Part shown: piece after piece, positions 20-5,275 of the stretch
How the letters are laid out: every line of letters starts with the position of its first letter
Numbering within the stretch: position 1 is the stretch's first letter
NCBI GenBank assembly: GCA_937942465.1
Contig: CALDEO010000251.1
Location: forward strand, 1 to 5,275
Origin: an uncultured Saprospiraceae bacterium
GTDB taxonomy: Bacteria > Bacteroidota > Bacteroidia > Chitinophagales > Saprospiraceae
Direction: 5' to 3'
Length of the DNA: 5,275 nt
Notes under the pieces: generated by a model
Databases searched by the model: none
What the model was told of the DNA's origin: nothing
What the model saw: the letters and a program-made list of their open reading frames with translations, nothing else
Program-made: the position numbers and the translations under genes

Positions 20-38
20 ATTTTCTCATTTTTTGTTG

Positions 39-111
39 CAGTACTGACGGGATTCGAACCCGCAACTTTCCGAGAGACAGTCGGATACTCTAGCCGTTGA
101 GTTACAATACT
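39..111 (-). tRNA. tRNA-Asp (anticodon GTC), intact cloverleaf with unusual U37
   Basis: On the minus strand the 73 nt fold into a complete cloverleaf. The 7-bp acceptor is AGTATTG with CAGTACT (one G-T pair). The D-stem is ACTC/GAGT with an 8-nt loop containing GG. The anticodon stem is TCCGA/TCGGA with loop CTGTCTC, and the variable loop is AAGTT. The T-arm is GCGGG-TTCGAAT-CCCGT. The anticodon GTC (76-78) and discriminator G73 fit tRNA-Asp. T8, A14, A21, T33 and the T-loop are canonical, and CCA is not encoded. Two features are odd: position 37 is a pyrimidine (T), where almost all tRNAs have a purine, and the first acceptor pair is A-T rather than G-C. No promoter is evident just upstream, so it may depend on read-through of the terminator at 137-174. 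Confidence 0.85.
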
Positions 112-592: not shown

Positions 593-628
593 AAAAAAAA
601 AGCGTCCAAAAATTAATTTGGACGCTTT
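593..628 (-). terminator. strong intrinsic terminator of the rtcB transcript
   Basis: A perfect 12-bp stem (599-610 with 617-628, core GCGTCCAAA/TTTGGACGC) encloses a 6-nt loop. On the minus strand it is followed by an uninterrupted run of nine T residues (complement of 593-601). It lies 236 nt after the rtcB stop codon and 28 nt after the stop of the short ORF at 657-830. The rtcB mRNA therefore probably ends here and carries a long 3' segment or a second small gene. Confidence 0.85.
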
Positions 629-656
629 CACTATACTAGGTTTATATTTTATACTA

Positions 657-864: not shown

Positions 865-2247
865 CTATCTTCTATTTCTATTCTTTTTTCTACGTTTTCT
901 CCATGGAGCATCTTGTTGCCAGTCACCTGCCATTATACATCCATAAGGCATAATCCTGTCTACAATTGTACCTAATCCGTAATACTCCATCTGTGCTTGC
1001 ACGGTCTCGGCATTCTTATATGCACTTGGTAACTCAGAGATATCGATACGTCCACTATAAAATCTAACATCAAGGCCAGACGTCTCTGCGGCAAACACTT
1101 CTTCGATCGTACGATCACTATTATTCCTGATATGCTGAGTCCTACTGATGTTTCTACCAGCTCCATGAGGAGCAAATCCAATATTATTTTCTGTGGTCTC
1201 ACCCTTTACTATCAATACTGGCTCGCTCATATTTAATGGAATCAAACGAAGACCATCCACTGAGTCTGGTACAAACTTATTACTTAAAGGTGTTGCTCCT
1301 TTGGCATGATAGAACTCATCTCCGTCCTTAAAAACAAAGTTGTGTTCATTCCAAAAACTATCCAATGGTTCAATCGCTAACTTTTCTGCTGTTGCTGTAT
1401 GCAATACTTCATGATTGAGCTTCGTCCATGCTCTTACCACCTGTAGTGCTGCCCAATATTCTCTTCCTTGATCGGTATCATATGGGATCCATGCATTGAC
1501 TTTATCTGTTTTTGGTGAAAACACCTTTCTATGTGCCTCGGCTGCTTGCATTCCTTTTTTATAAAGATAAGCACCGAACCCTCTACTACCGTGATGCGTC
1601 ACCATGATCGTCTCGCCAGTCTTCTCAGACTTACCAACATATAAGAAGTGGTTGCCATCACCTTGAGTTCCGAGATGAGTTTTTGCCAAGTTTAAACTTC
1701 TTTCACTATTTAAAAATCGGTTTTCTTTGATCTGCTCTTCCAATGCTACTGGAAAGTCAAAAAGATCCTGTCTACCGCCACCACCAAAATGCGTAATGCT
1801 ATGAGCAGCATCCAAGACAGCCTTGGGGTCAGCATTACCAAATGATGTCATCATCACAGAACAACAAACATCAGCACTATGCATTGCTGGATGGATTGCA
1901 TTTTTTGTCACTACTACACCACCAACTGGGATCTGACCGATCGATCCAGTAGGACATGCATCCGGCATTACCGCTCCATTCACGACAGTGGGAGTCTTCA
2001 TAAGTGCATCCATCGTGCTGAATACCTTATCTACTGTTACAGCCTCAACTTCATTCTCAGCTTTTATATTCTTATGGTAGGCTACAGCTACTTCTAATGG
2101 CTCTATTAATTGCGGTTGATTGTCATCTAAATATTCTTTAAGCTGTGTATCCGATAACTCATTGCTGTTAACATACTGAAGTGCATCGGTAAACCATGCT
2201 CCGGGCTGATAACCCATCTCTACTAATTTTTTTCCTGTAATATTCAT
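865..2247 (-). CDS. rtcB: RtcB-family RNA ligase (divergent clade)
   Basis: Cytoplasmic RNA ligase of the RtcB family, which joins 2',3'-cyclic-phosphate or 3'-phosphate RNA ends to 5'-OH ends using Mn2+ and GTP through a histidine-GMP intermediate. The product has 460 residues. Likely metal ligands are D126 and C129 (in SADVCCSV), H200 (GDGNHF), H218 (THHGSRG) and H302 (EHN). The guanylylated histidine is H361 in PHGAGR. Several conserved spots differ: DVCCS for the usual DxGCG, MPDAC for MPDxH, PLNM for PG(S/N)M near 337-340, and MAG for the C-terminal VKG, so the penultimate lysine is missing. A basic tail, WRKRRKKNRNRR, follows. Start: an upstream TTG at 2274 would add nine residues, but ATG at 2247 follows an A-rich stretch and puts the N-terminus just before ITGKKLVEMGYQPG. 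It is divergent from a WYL regulator. The family is certain; the exact substrate is not. Confidence 0.94.
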   Translation of the reverse strand: MNITGKKLVEMGYQPGAWFTDALQYVNSNELSDTQLKEYLDDNQPQLIEPLEVAVAYHKNIKAENEVEAVTVDKVFSTMDALMKTPTVVNGAVMPDACPTGSIGQIPVGGVVVTKNAIHPAMHSADVCCSVMMTSFGNADPKAVLDAAHSITHFGGGGRQDLFDFPVALEEQIKENRFLNSERSLNLAKTHLGTQGDGNHFLYVGKSEKTGETIMVTHHGSRGFGAYLYKKGMQAAEAHRKVFSPKTDKVNAWIPYDTDQGREYWAALQVVRAWTKLNHEVLHTATAEKLAIEPLDSFWNEHNFVFKDGDEFYHAKGATPLSNKFVPDSVDGLRLIPLNMSEPVLIVKGETTENNIGFAPHGAGRNISRTQHIRNNSDRTIEEVFAAETSGLDVRFYSGRIDISELPSAYKNAETVQAQMEYYGLGTIVDRIMPYGCIMAGDWQQDAPWRKRRKKNRNRR

Positions 2248-2264
2248 TTTTTCTTTATTTACAT

Positions 2265-2272
2265 CAAAGATC
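2265..2272 (-). promoter_or_regulatory. candidate -7 element of the rtcB promoter
   Basis: The minus-strand octamer GATCTTTG matches TAnnTTTG at all defined positions except the first. It lies 17 nt upstream of the ATG at 2247, allowing a short A-rich leader. No TTG sits at the expected 19-nt spacing: that region (2292-2295) reads AAAA on the minus strand and falls in the right half of the inverted repeat at 2282-2300. A weak -33 element overlapped by a candidate operator would suit activator-dependent control. Confidence 0.35.
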
Positions 2273-2281
2273 AAGTACTAC

Positions 2282-2300
2282 TACGCAACTATTTTGCGTA
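2282..2300. promoter_or_regulatory. inverted repeat, candidate operator between rtcB and the WYL gene
   Basis: TACGCAA (2282-2288) and TTGCGTA (2294-2300) are exact reverse complements separated by 5 nt (CTATT), giving a 19-bp dyad typical of a dimeric helix-turn-helix regulator. It is the only clear dyad in the 80 bp between the two divergent start codons and stands out as G/C-bearing in an AT-rich gap. It overlaps the expected -33 region of rtcB and lies 28 bp upstream of the WYL start, so one bound protein could act on both genes. The WYL protein is the natural candidate binder by inference; nothing in the sequence proves it. Confidence 0.55.
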
Positions 2301-2327
2301 CATTAAAATAATAGAAAATAATTTTTG

Positions 2328-3359
2328 ATGGCTACTAATAAAAATGCACTCATCAGGTATCGAACGATCGACAAATGCCTACAAAACAGATCTAGGAAAT
2401 GGACCCTTGATAATCTGATAGAATATTGCTCCGACGCATTATATGAGTTTGAAGGTAAAAATACGAATGTAAGTAAAAGGACAATACAACTAGATATACA
2501 ACTGATGCGTAGCAATAAGCTTGGATATAATGCTCCGATCATTAGCTATGACAAGAAGTACTATACCTACGAAGATGAGACCTACTCTATCACAGATATA
2601 CCGATCACCACTGTAGATATGTCTATTATCAAAGAGTCCATCGATATGCTGAAGCAATTCAAAAACTTCTCATTATTCTCTGAACTCAACGGGGTCATGC
2701 AGAAACTTGAAGATAAAGTCTATAGAGAATCAACGAATGAGTCAGCGATCATTCATATGGATAAAAATGACAGACTCCATGGTATAGAACATCTTGATAC
2801 CCTATATCAAGCAATACTAAAGAAGATTGTCTTACGTCTAACATATCGTTCGTTCACCGCAAGGGCAGATAGCGACTTCTTATTTCATGGTTATATACTC
2901 AAAGAGTATAACAATAGATGGTTTATTATCGGGCAACGGAATAGTGAAAAAAAAGTACTCACCCTCGCACTAGACCGCATTGTCAACATAGATCTATCAC
3001 TCAACACGGAGTATCTTCATCGGGTATTTGATGCAGACGACTATTATAAGAACACCTACGGTGTCACCGTGCTCAATGATGCTAACCTGAAAACTATAGT
3101 CCTAAAAATAGAACGATCCAATGCTCCTTATGTAATCACAAAGCCATTCCATCAAAGTCAAAAATTACTCACTCAACATAAGGATGGCAGTATAGAAATA
3201 TCCATCGACGTACACCACAACTATGAAATAGAACGATTGATTTTAGGTTTTGGTAGTTCGATAGAAGTTATATCTCCTATGAGACTAAGACGTAGGATCA
3301 AGTCTTCATTACATAAGGCTTTACGCAAGTATCAACCTACAGAAAATATCGAATCTTAA
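2328..3359 (+). CDS. WYL-domain transcriptional regulator, divergent from rtcB
   Basis: Predicted DNA-binding regulator of 343 residues. Residues 1-80 form a winged-helix region (MATNKNALIRYRTIDKCL, then VSKRTIQLDIQLMRS as likely recognition segment, then a wing ending KKYYTYED). A helical linker (about 90-150) leads to the WYL domain at about 155-220, where the signature WYL reads W198-F199-I200 in NNRWFIIGQRN, followed by LALDRI (213-218). The WCX-type C-terminal domain spans about 255-335. WYL domains are thought to bind ligands, often nucleic acids, as in PafBC-type regulators. The length is normal for the family. Start: a TTG at 2325 is also in frame, but the adjacent ATG at 2328 is preferred. 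Its position back to back with rtcB, sharing a 19-bp dyad, suggests it controls rtcB and itself. From memory, near-identical N-termini are common in Bacteroidota. No terminator is visible downstream. Confidence 0.92.
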   Translation: MATNKNALIRYRTIDKCLQNRSRKWTLDNLIEYCSDALYEFEGKNTNVSKRTIQLDIQLMRSNKLGYNAPIISYDKKYYTYEDETYSITDIPITTVDMSIIKESIDMLKQFKNFSLFSELNGVMQKLEDKVYRESTNESAIIHMDKNDRLHGIEHLDTLYQAILKKIVLRLTYRSFTARADSDFLFHGYILKEYNNRWFIIGQRNSEKKVLTLALDRIVNIDLSLNTEYLHRVFDADDYYKNTYGVTVLNDANLKTIVLKIERSNAPYVITKPFHQSQKLLTQHKDGSIEISIDVHHNYEIERLILGFGSSIEVISPMRLRRRIKSSLHKALRKYQPTENIES

Positions 3360-3493
3360 TAGTCGTGAAAAACAACTAAATAAAACCAATCACTGACCAC
3401 ATGCAGCGTTTGGGTAACTAGTATTATATTACTAAGACAATGGCCTTCTATCTTGTAATTAAGAAGGTGTATTCTATCGCAAAATCAGTTATT
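3360..3493. other. intergenic gap without a clear promoter or terminator
   Basis: This 134-bp gap separates two plus-strand genes. I found no TAnnTTTG element at proper spacing and no stem followed by a T tract. Two weak dyads (3419-3434 and 3444-3467) are AT-rich or have long loops. Whether the downstream gene has its own promoter cannot be decided from the sequence alone. Confidence 0.4.
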
Positions 3494-5275
3494 ATGAAAA
3501 AATCATTCATTTACTCTTTTATTGTATTAGTTCTATTCTCATTTGCCGTGCAAGCACAACAATCTGGAGATGAAATCTTTGATAATAGTTTTATTCATGA
3601 AGTACGCTTACAATTTGATGACACCAATTTTTTAAGTGTTTTATCTAATAATTTTGATTCAACTCCTCAAGAAGTAGGTAGTAGAGTTCCATACTTAATG
3701 GCTCATGTAACGATCGATGGAGTACAAGTTGATTCTGTTGGAGTCCGTTACAAGGGTTTTACCTCTTACTCTCCTGAGAGCCCTAAAAAGCCAATAAAGA
3801 TCGATTTCAATGAGTTTGTTGCTGGTAAAAGATATGATGGATTACGAAAGTTAAACCTAAACAATGCTACTGGTGACCCTGCTATGCAGCGAGATGTAAT
3901 CTGTTATGATTTGCTCCGTGCTGTAGGAGTTAATGCTTCTAGGACTTCGTACTCTAAAGTATACCTCAATGATGAATATTATGGCCTTTATCAAACGATC
4001 GAACAAGTAGATCAAGCGTTCCTAAAAAACAACTTTAGTAACGACAAAGGTAATCTCTTTAAAAATAAGTCATGGAGTAAGTTTGAGTATAATGGACCCA
4101 ATAAATCGGGATATGACAATATATTCGAATTAAAAACAAACAGAGAAACAGATGACTGGTCAGGTTTTATTAATCTAATGGATGTCCTAAACAACTCAAG
4201 TGATACAGAATTCGAATCAACAATAGAGTCTATATTTAATGTAGACCTATACCTAAAAACCCTTGCTGTTGATGTCGCTACAGGCAATTGGGATTCTTAT
4301 CTACAACATGGTCGTAACTGGTATGTTTATGAGGATACAAACACGGGTGTATTTCATTGGATACCGTGGGATTATAACTTTGCTTTAGAATCTTCCAGTT
4401 TTGGTGGTGAAGCTGAAGATTGTTTTGTGTTTCCTGAGTTTTCAGGTTGGACAGATGGTTCTGAAACTGTAAAATTCTATAATACCAGTTTTGCAACAGA
4501 GCAACCAATGTATATGTATGATTTTGGAGATGGCAATACATCAACTGAAGAAAACCCAATACATACTTTTGATCAAGCTGGTGTCTACGACGTATGTCTA
4601 ACACTAACCGTATCAGAAAACTGTACTGATCAATTTTGTAAAACAATCGATACAAATTATGATTATAACAATTGCAACTCAATAACAAGTGGTCAATTTG
4701 GTAGTGAAATCAATGAATACTTTGTGCAAACAGTTGAATGGAACTCTGGATGTTGTGGTACATGGAATGAAGACTGCCAAGAGATCTATGGTTGGTTATC
4801 TGGTGCTCCAGGTGAAGGGGGTAGTGATTTTACAGTTAATCAAGATGACAACGAAGGCGTACTCATCAGAAGATTGATGAGTGTAGATAAGTTTAAAGAA
4901 CGATACTATGAGTACTTCTGTCAAATGACTAATCAAGAATATACCCCAGAAAAGTATGAGGCGTTTATAAATGATAATAAGACATTAATAGAAACAGAGA
5001 TTCAAAACGATCCAAATCAACTTTTTAGTTATGACCAATTTGTTAAAGATTCTGGTGCAGAAGGAATCCTACAAACAATAAACACTAGACATGAAGCACT
5101 TGTAACAGAACTAGAAGATACGTACGGCTGCCAATTCAACATCGTACCAGTAGATTATCAAGATATAGTTATCAATGAACTCGTAGCATCTAATGATTCT
5201 TTAAGTAACATAGCAGATGCCGAAGGTAAATATGAAGATTGGATTGAATTATTTAATAACACCAATCAAGATATA
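3494..5275 (+). CDS. secreted CotH-kinase / PKD / lamin-tail protein, 3' end outside window
   Basis: The frame is open from ATG at 3494 to the window edge (594 codons). Residues 1-21 are a signal peptide (MKKSFIYSFIVLVLFSFAVQA, cleavage probably before Q22), so the product is exported. Residues about 34-300 match the CotH kinase-like domain: RYKG (85-88), LRKLNLNNATGDPAMQRD (117-134), YLNDEYYGLYQTIEQVD (157-173), GNWDSY with D267, and WIPWDYN with D293 (probable catalytic and metal-binding aspartates). A cysteine-rich insert (about 305-455) follows. It holds a PKD domain (about 312-386; YDFGDG at 342-347, NPIHTF, AGVYDVCLTLT) and a CCGTWNEDC motif (420-428). The CotH fold then resumes at LIRRLMSVDKFKERYYEYF. 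From I558 a lamin-tail domain begins (INELVASN, DWIELFN). The missing C-terminus may carry a type IX secretion signal. B. subtilis CotH phosphorylates spore-coat proteins; the target here is unknown. Confidence 0.9.
   Translation, partial: MKKSFIYSFIVLVLFSFAVQAQQSGDEIFDNSFIHEVRLQFDDTNFLSVLSNNFDSTPQEVGSRVPYLMAHVTIDGVQVDSVGVRYKGFTSYSPESPKKPIKIDFNEFVAGKRYDGLRKLNLNNATGDPAMQRDVICYDLLRAVGVNASRTSYSKVYLNDEYYGLYQTIEQVDQAFLKNNFSNDKGNLFKNKSWSKFEYNGPNKSGYDNIFELKTNRETDDWSGFINLMDVLNNSSDTEFESTIESIFNVDLYLKTLAVDVATGNWDSYLQHGRNWYVYEDTNTGVFHWIPWDYNFALESSSFGGEAEDCFVFPEFSGWTDGSETVKFYNTSFATEQPMYMYDFGDGNTSTEENPIHTFDQAGVYDVCLTLTVSENCTDQFCKTIDTNYDYNNCNSITSGQFGSEINEYFVQTVEWNSGCCGTWNEDCQEIYGWLSGAPGEGGSDFTVNQDDNEGVLIRRLMSVDKFKERYYEYFCQMTNQEYTPEKYEAFINDNKTLIETEIQNDPNQLFSYDQFVKDSGAEGILQTINTRHEALVTELEDTYGCQFNIVPVDYQDIVINELVASNDSLSNIADAEGKYEDWIELFNNTNQDI

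Follow-up and report, generated by a model that had tools for sequence, protein, structure and literature searches.

A divergent WYL regulator-rtcB pair and a shared palindrome suggest a candidate RNA-repair regulon in Bacteroidota

We analyzed a 5,275-nt stretch of DNA, hereafter called the window, from contig CALDEO010000251.1 of an uncultured Saprospiraceae bacterium, whose 1.85-Mb assembly (G000, the source genome) is 65% complete. The window carries a gene for a predicted RNA ligase of the RtcB family (rtcB) divergent from a gene for a WYL-domain transcription regulator, and a 19-bp palindrome lies between the two. We propose that the regulator is probably a DriD-like activator that would bind this palindrome, which is shared by RNA-repair genes of related bacteria, and would switch on these genes, including rtcB, on sensing broken RNA. 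This proposal draws on sequence comparison and on analogy with solved regulators. The divergent pair itself is real, and the finding is larger than a preliminary description of this DNA had stated.

The divergent WYL-rtcB pair and its conservation

Coordinates and Pfam matches bore out the preliminary description of an RtcB-family ligase gene and a WYL regulator gene lying back to back, with 80 bp between their ATG codons. The start of rtcB was set at the ATG at 2247, where its relatives align; the list of open reading frames (ORFs) starts the gene at the TTG at 2274. The product matched PF01139 with 121.5 bits (cut-off, 27), and residues D96, D126, C129, N199, H200, H218, H302, and H361 were invariant in an alignment of seven window-type and five canonical-type RtcBs. 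We take these eight positions to correspond to the metal/guanylate site of RtcB. Identity to the five canonical-type RtcBs was 26-30%. We conclude that the window protein is an RtcB of a divergent subfamily and, from its sequence, a predicted RNA ligase. There was no rtcA gene among the window genes, as judged from ORFs and Pfam.

The regulator scored above the Pfam cut-off for both WYL (PF13280) and WCX (PF25583). Its N-terminal helix-turn-helix (HTH) gave a weak Pfam match only (HTH_11, E 0.06, below cut-off), and an AlphaFold2 model, with a mean pLDDT (predicted local distance difference test) of 79.4, shows a winged helix there, with helices at residues 5-19, 27-42, and 50-61 and strands at 71-74 and 78-81. 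The architecture is HTH, WYL, and WCX, where the HTH is modeled and the other two domains are assigned by sequence. In a Foldseek search with the model, the best match was DriD (8tp8; E 1.4e-15; 15-16% identity), which was also the top match in a profile search of the PDB (E 4e-6 to 9e-7; C-terminal half). BrxR and CapW were among the weaker fold matches, and DriD stood above BrxR in both sequence profile and fold. DriD and PafBC, the nearest solved WYL regulators, bind single-stranded DNA (ssDNA) in the WYL domain (PMC12340889, PMC11804915; here and below, published systems are described from excerpts of the cited reports), which makes nucleic-acid sensing by the window regulator plausible.

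The pairing was surveyed in 296 Bacteroidota genomes, where WYL orthologues were defined by about 43% identity or more, a threshold of our own, and window-type RtcBs by 53% identity or more. Some match to the WYL protein occurred in 131 genomes, and the orthologue group in 35. Window-type RtcB was found in 17 genomes, 13 of which also hold a WYL orthologue (Fisher p ~1.6e-10), and the two genes lie within ~4.5 kb of each other in all 13. We then examined 80 named loci, the best of at least 588 recovered with the WYL alignment; 14 of these 80 end early at contig ends. When ORFs under 110 amino acids (aa) and the gene for C2, a protein described below, were skipped, divergent window-type rtcB was the nearest gene upstream of WYL in 32 of the 80 named loci, and 73 contained some RNA-repair gene within the fetched stretch. 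The conserved divergent adjacency for which the preliminary description called for a Bacteroidota survey is therefore present, and chance adjacency of rtcB and WYL is ruled out by the co-occurrence, the linkage, and the 80-locus counts.

The partners of the regulator vary. A quick-method tree was built from 130 WYL homologues, including distant ones, among which some branches are long. Along this tree, the nearest repair partner, scored as one of seven states with "none" as one of them, changes at least 39 times, compared to a mean of 76 in shuffles. These changes, fewer than in shuffles but many, suggest that partners were exchanged under a kept regulator. The window falls in a starred set of nine rows, all beside window-type RtcB (99 by the Shimodaira-Hasegawa-like approximate likelihood ratio test, SH-aLRT), and the rows that lie closest to its WYL protein come from Saprospiraceae and from a genome in the same family group. 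In L060, L062, L064, and L067, the WYL homologue (33-37% identity) adjoins a recurrent pair of genes for proteins of 316-396 aa and 803-939 aa, and there is no exact copy of the palindrome.

A shared palindrome, its targets, and its promoter geometry

The palindrome between the two window genes has the consensus TRCGCA-N7-TGCGYA. Exact copies numbered 41 in the window plus 25 WYL-orthologue loci (398,594 bases), and the mean in 20 resamplings of each of these sequences was 0.0. At least one exact copy was present in 24 of the 26 sequences (all but L037 and L051), whereas the 13 loci with distant WYL homologues included just one that had it. A site with a matrix score of at least 15 lay within 2.6 kb of the gene centre for 109 of 114 orthologues, compared to 2 of 16 distant proteins, among the 130 homologues. 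In the source assembly, the exact palindrome occurs once, at 2282-2300, and with one mismatch allowed there were 7 sites versus 2 for a reversed control. Across the survey, 34 of the 35 WYL-orthologue genomes held the palindrome, with 90 copies versus 6 of the reversed control. By contrast, 79 of the 261 genomes lacking the orthologue held it, with 124 copies versus 89 (Fisher 1.8e-11 for the two operator-to-control ratios). By these control counts, the palindrome is near background outside orthologue genomes and well above it inside. We conclude that the palindrome tracks with this WYL orthologue group.

Genes downstream of the sites were clustered, and one or a few representatives of each family were scanned by Pfam. 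Sites precede genes for both RtcB types, TROVE/Ro60, a T4-type RNA ligase (PF09511), Hen1_N, PNKP ligase, PNK kinase with HAD phosphatase, RlaP, and RNase_T. In one genome (L045), a Pnkp-Hen1-RlaP cluster is divergent from WYL. In the 80 named loci, the nearest gene past the site encoded WYL (45), window-type RtcB (41), C2 (33), canonical RtcB (15), TROVE (8), RlaP (6), PNK (4), RNA ligase (3), C11 (2), RNase_T, a 597-aa family, a RING-type family, and Hen1_N (one each), or another protein (20). SPFH/Band_7 genes occur in several site-bearing loci, not directly behind a site.

Sites that have no close gene stand, in the loci examined, before a tRNA-like RNA. For all 14 such RNAs examined (13 loci), the site is 140-148 bp upstream and TTTG lies 15 nt past it. 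The RNA is conserved, measures ~115-125 nt, and lies between the operator and the gene for a RING-type protein in Flavobacterium-type loci (L230:4622-4738, minus strand; also L036, L038, L039, L107 with two, L112, L114, L218, L219, L224, L239, L247, and L251); its acceptor, D, and T arms are tRNA-like, and a conserved longer stretch replaces the anticodon arm. A scan of the window with Rfam at the gathering threshold gave no RNA except tRNA, which places the tRNA-like RNAs of relatives outside the window's own locus.

Several protein families recur around these loci. A 746-aa protein (L038:3449-5686 and 24 further copies, some partial), which matches the MXAN_6230/SCO0854 RING family (NF041916) below cut-off, lies behind the tRNA-like RNA or near rtcB. 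C2, of ~204 aa and with no Pfam match, is encoded at L041:14272-14883 and in relatives; in Flavobacterium-type loci, its gene often follows the operator and directly precedes WYL. A 585-597-aa protein (L124:3418-5208 and five relatives; no Pfam or NCBIfam match) lies near window-type rtcB in five of its six copies. In five genomes of one genus group, a small HopJ-family gene (PF08888; L122:7186-7518 and four relatives, one copy Pfam-scanned) stands between the operator and WYL.

The preliminary description had put a WYL protein in the place of RtcR at rtcB, within an RNA-repair module of the two genes. The sigma-54/RtcR arrangement can be rejected, as the RtcR family (PF06956), which matched 16 of the 296 genomes, had no match in the 65%-complete source assembly or in the 35 WYL-orthologue genomes; this lack of overlap is by itself weak, because such numbers give none fairly often by chance. 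The conserved divergent pair and the shared candidate operator favor the WYL protein as the regulator. A replacement specific to rtcB seems too narrow a role, because the same palindrome precedes several non-homologous repair genes. The module is thus upheld as a pair and in part of its role, and the operator and the wider regulon were absent from the preliminary description.

Bacteroidota promoters differ from the sigma-70 consensus and follow TTTG-N19-TAnnTTTG. A sigma-70 scan of the window, which returned 15 promoter-like sites versus 22.4 in shuffles, was therefore uninformative. We assigned promoter boxes from the Bacteroidota consensus and take TTTG here to be the end of the -7 box, TAnnTTTG. 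On the repair-gene side, TTTG starts 14 nt (54 sites) or 15 nt (18 sites) past the palindrome at 72 of 78 sites in the 80 named loci, and at the window rtcB site the distance is 14 nt; the full TAnnTTTG form is rare on this side. At this spacing, the position of the -33 box falls inside the operator, and the box is not there. On the WYL/C2 side, TTTG was at 14 nt in 2 of 78 sites and at 15 nt in none of 78, and TAnnTTTG was at offset 16 in 28 of 78, where it forms TTTG-N19-TAnnTTTG together with the TTTG of the operator.

The same spacing appears where rtcB is not divergent from WYL. In L197, rtcB follows WYL in tandem and has its own site, with TTTG at 14 nt. In L132 (genome G017), two operator-like sites precede a canonical rtcB ~80 kb from WYL, and the nearer has TTTG at 15 nt. 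This locus contains two canonical rtcB genes near each other (L132:4534-5946 and 8015-9001), the first of which carries both sites. DriD binds ATACGAC-N7-GTCGTAT over the -35 region, at one distance from the -10 box in aligned promoters (PMC12340889). The sites described here are likewise palindromic, have an N7 spacer, and lie over -33 at a fixed distance from -7, and binding to them is predicted.

Table 1. Features of the 5,275-nt window
Feature	Position	Strand	Basis or remark
rtcB, RNA ligase of the divergent window-type RtcB subfamily (predicted)	865..2247	-	460 aa; PF01139
WYL-domain transcription regulator: winged HTH, WYL, WCX	2328..3359	+	343 aa; PF13280, PF25583
Divergent promoter/operator region, rtcB to WYL gene	2248..2327	.	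80 bp, ATG to ATG
19-bp palindrome TACGCAACTATTTTGCGTA, candidate operator, consensus TRCGCA-N7-TGCGYA	2282..2300	.	motif counts
Candidate -7 promoter element of rtcB, GATCTTTG	2265..2272	-	sequence; TTTG starts 14 nt past operator
N-terminal winged HTH, WYL protein residues 1-81	2328..2570	+	model; strongly conserved block in the alignment
WYL domain, presumed ligand sensor, residues 154-221	2787..2990	+	PF13280 match; sensing role inferred
WCX domain, residues 256-332	3093..3323	+	PF25583 match
tRNA-Asp gene	38-111	-	
Terminator-like hairpin, 13 pairs and U-run	598-629	-	~240 bp past rtcB stop codon
CotH kinase protein with PKD and weak partial LTD match	3440-5275		runs off window

The CotH/PKD gene downstream of the regulator was considered as a WYL operon partner and rejected, since no like-sized gene recurs 3' of WYL in the listed neighbourhoods; CotH itself was not searched for.

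A proposed mechanism and its alternatives

In the proposed mechanism, the WYL protein would bind the palindrome at 2282-2300 as a dimer and, in related loci, its counterparts, which take the -33 position of repair promoters lacking a -33 box. Because the box is missing, RNA polymerase would depend on bound WYL protein at these promoters, in the manner of DriD and PafBC. We favor activation because the layout on the repair-gene side is that of activators at -35 and because DriD is the best fold and profile match. In some relatives, the -33 TTTG of the promoter that drives the regulator gene would fall within the palindrome on the WYL side, and this placement suggests that the regulator, once bound, would also limit its own expression. 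The regulator is predicted to be activated by broken RNA, for example tRNA halves or molecules that end in a 2',3'-cyclic phosphate or a 5'-OH, and this signal would disappear once RtcB and other enzymes had mended the RNA. Throughout Bacteroidota, this one regulator would then control RNA repair, whatever enzymes a given genome encodes for it. The RNA signal is suggested by the function of the targets and by precedent (ssDNA for DriD and PafBC, tRNA halves for RtcR), and the results presented here do not separate RNA from DNA ligands.

Several observations weigh against this proposal. The source genome has a second, canonical rtcB on a 15.8-kb contig (C261) where no WYL gene was called and no operator-like site was found (best matrix score, 2.8), and neither TROVE nor RlaP turned up in the 65%-complete assembly; the regulon in this organism is therefore seen for one rtcB only. 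Window-type RtcB occurs without a WYL orthologue in 4 of 17 genomes, and 7 of the 80 named loci had no repair gene in the fetched stretch (L206, at least, is truncated). Some targets have no evident RNA-repair role, namely the "other" genes and a pair in L034, L037, and L041, where the site precedes a gene for a 1463-1487-aa PKD/SprB-repeat protein followed by one for a PorP/SprF protein (Pfam in L037 only). The farther site in L132 does not have the TTTG spacing. The predicted template modeling score (pTM) of the regulator model is low, at 0.48. TAnnTTTG at offset 16 is missing in 50 of 78 WYL/C2-side sites of relatives and on the window's own WYL side, which makes self-repression a weaker inference. 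Finally, another protein could bind the palindrome, and we regard DNA binding by the WYL protein, activation of its targets, and the response to RNA as predictions.

Among the alternatives, a tentative but possible one is that the pair forms an anti-phage or anti-toxin defence unit, in which the WYL protein regulates defence and RtcB mends tRNA cut by phage or toxin. WYL regulators co-locate with defence systems (PMC9122601), Pnkp-Rnl-Hen1 repairs ribotoxin-cleaved RNA (PMC4411300), and the window WYL protein matched two WYL profiles and one Cas3c profile of PADLOC; however, PADLOC had no match for the window RtcB. This alternative is compatible with activation by broken RNA, as it names the source of the damage and not the switch.

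We consider it doubtful that the regulator instead senses DNA damage in the form of ssDNA, with RNA repair as one arm of a DNA-damage response. The ligands of DriD and PafBC (PMC12340889, PMC11804915) and the finding that, in Salmonella, tRNAs are cleaved and rtc is induced as a result of DNA damage (PMC7790460) are consistent with such sensing, and the RNase_T exonuclease target could act on DNA. The recurrent annotated targets, however, are RNA-repair genes and tRNA-like RNAs, and no clear DNA-repair enzyme was seen among 30 Pfam-scanned neighbour or target proteins, a scan that covered a minority of the single-copy targets.

A BrxR/CapW-type mechanism, in which the WYL protein would block both rtcB and its own gene from the palindrome until a ligand releases it, is unlikely. 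BrxR acts as a repressor through inverted repeats close to its promoter (PMC9122601), BrxR and CapW do appear among the weaker fold matches, and the promoter region on either side shares sequence with the operator. The lack of a -33 box at the repair promoters and their one tight spacing (72 of 78 sites), as at DriD activator sites (PMC12340889), argue against repression, as does the rank of DriD ahead of BrxR. A passenger role for the WYL gene, with a different regulator on the palindrome, is highly improbable: non-orthologue genomes do hold copies, and in Flavobacterium-type loci C2 does accompany WYL past the operator, but the non-orthologue genomes exceed the control only somewhat while orthologue genomes are strongly enriched, the window and many site-bearing loci yielded no C2, and the N7 spacing equals that of DriD (PMC12340889).

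With the DriD-like activator as the preferred reading, a wider view suggests itself, for which the case seems to us evenly balanced: the system may be a Bacteroidota RNA counterpart of the SOS response, in which one WYL sensor of broken RNA and one "RNA-repair box" (TRCGCA-N7-TGCGYA) would govern all mending chemistries of a genome, among them RtcB, T4-type ligase, Pnkp-Hen1, RlaP, TROVE/Ro60 scaffolds, and tRNA-like RNAs, and the regulator would have been kept while the enzymes were swapped many times. That CARF and WYL factors in general may detect RNA ends and control the repair of RNA has been stated before (PMC9503650); titles and abstract openings among the literature matches listed contained no description of this operator or regulon. 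If correct, the proposal would let Bacteroidota RNA repair be viewed at the level of a whole regulon and would supply a sequence tag for candidate repair genes, such as those for the 204-aa partner, the RING-type protein behind the tRNA-like RNA, and the 585-597-aa protein. It would also make testable what tells a bacterium lacking RtcR that its RNA is broken. Moreover, it would extend the logic of DriD and PafBC from DNA damage to RNA damage, with WYL domains tunable to different nucleic-acid damage signals.

Comparison with known systems

DriD, in the published excerpts, shares with the window regulator the HTH-WYL-WCX architecture, a pseudo-palindromic N7 site, and placement at -35 at one distance from -10, and is its best fold match. 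It differs in its regulon (didA/bapE/recJ/dnaG versus RNA repair here), in its half-site (TACGAC versus TRCGCA), and in sequence (15-16% identity). PafBC is a mycobacterial WYL activator that works by sigma adaptation, in which it comes to lie between the promoter and the sigma domain responsible for -35 recognition (PMC11804915). It belongs to the same WYL family, and the sensing of nucleic-acid damage, which that report describes for PafBC, is predicted here; in contrast, PafBC is a heterodimer with a -26 motif and a DNA-damage regulon, and is found in mycobacteria. In BrxR and CapW, a WYL dimer binds inverted repeats (PMC9122601, as excerpted), as is predicted here, whereas their fold and sequence scores are lower than those of DriD and the promoter geometry here points to activation.

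The Pnkp-Rnl-Hen1 system is linked to the window through relatives, in which the operator recurs at genes from these enzyme families, and differs in that its genes are not in the window itself. To our knowledge, no published regulator is shared between Pnkp-Rnl-Hen1 and RtcB. In the proteobacterial RtcR-rtcBA (rsr-yrlBA-rtcBA) system, 5' tRNA fragments that carry a cyclic phosphate activate RtcR (PMC7790460). This system and the one described here pair a regulator with RtcB, in some relatives together with TROVE/Ro60 and a tRNA-like RNA. RtcR, however, is a sigma-54 CARF activator, whereas the candidate targets of the WYL system include RNA ligases that are not related to RtcB.

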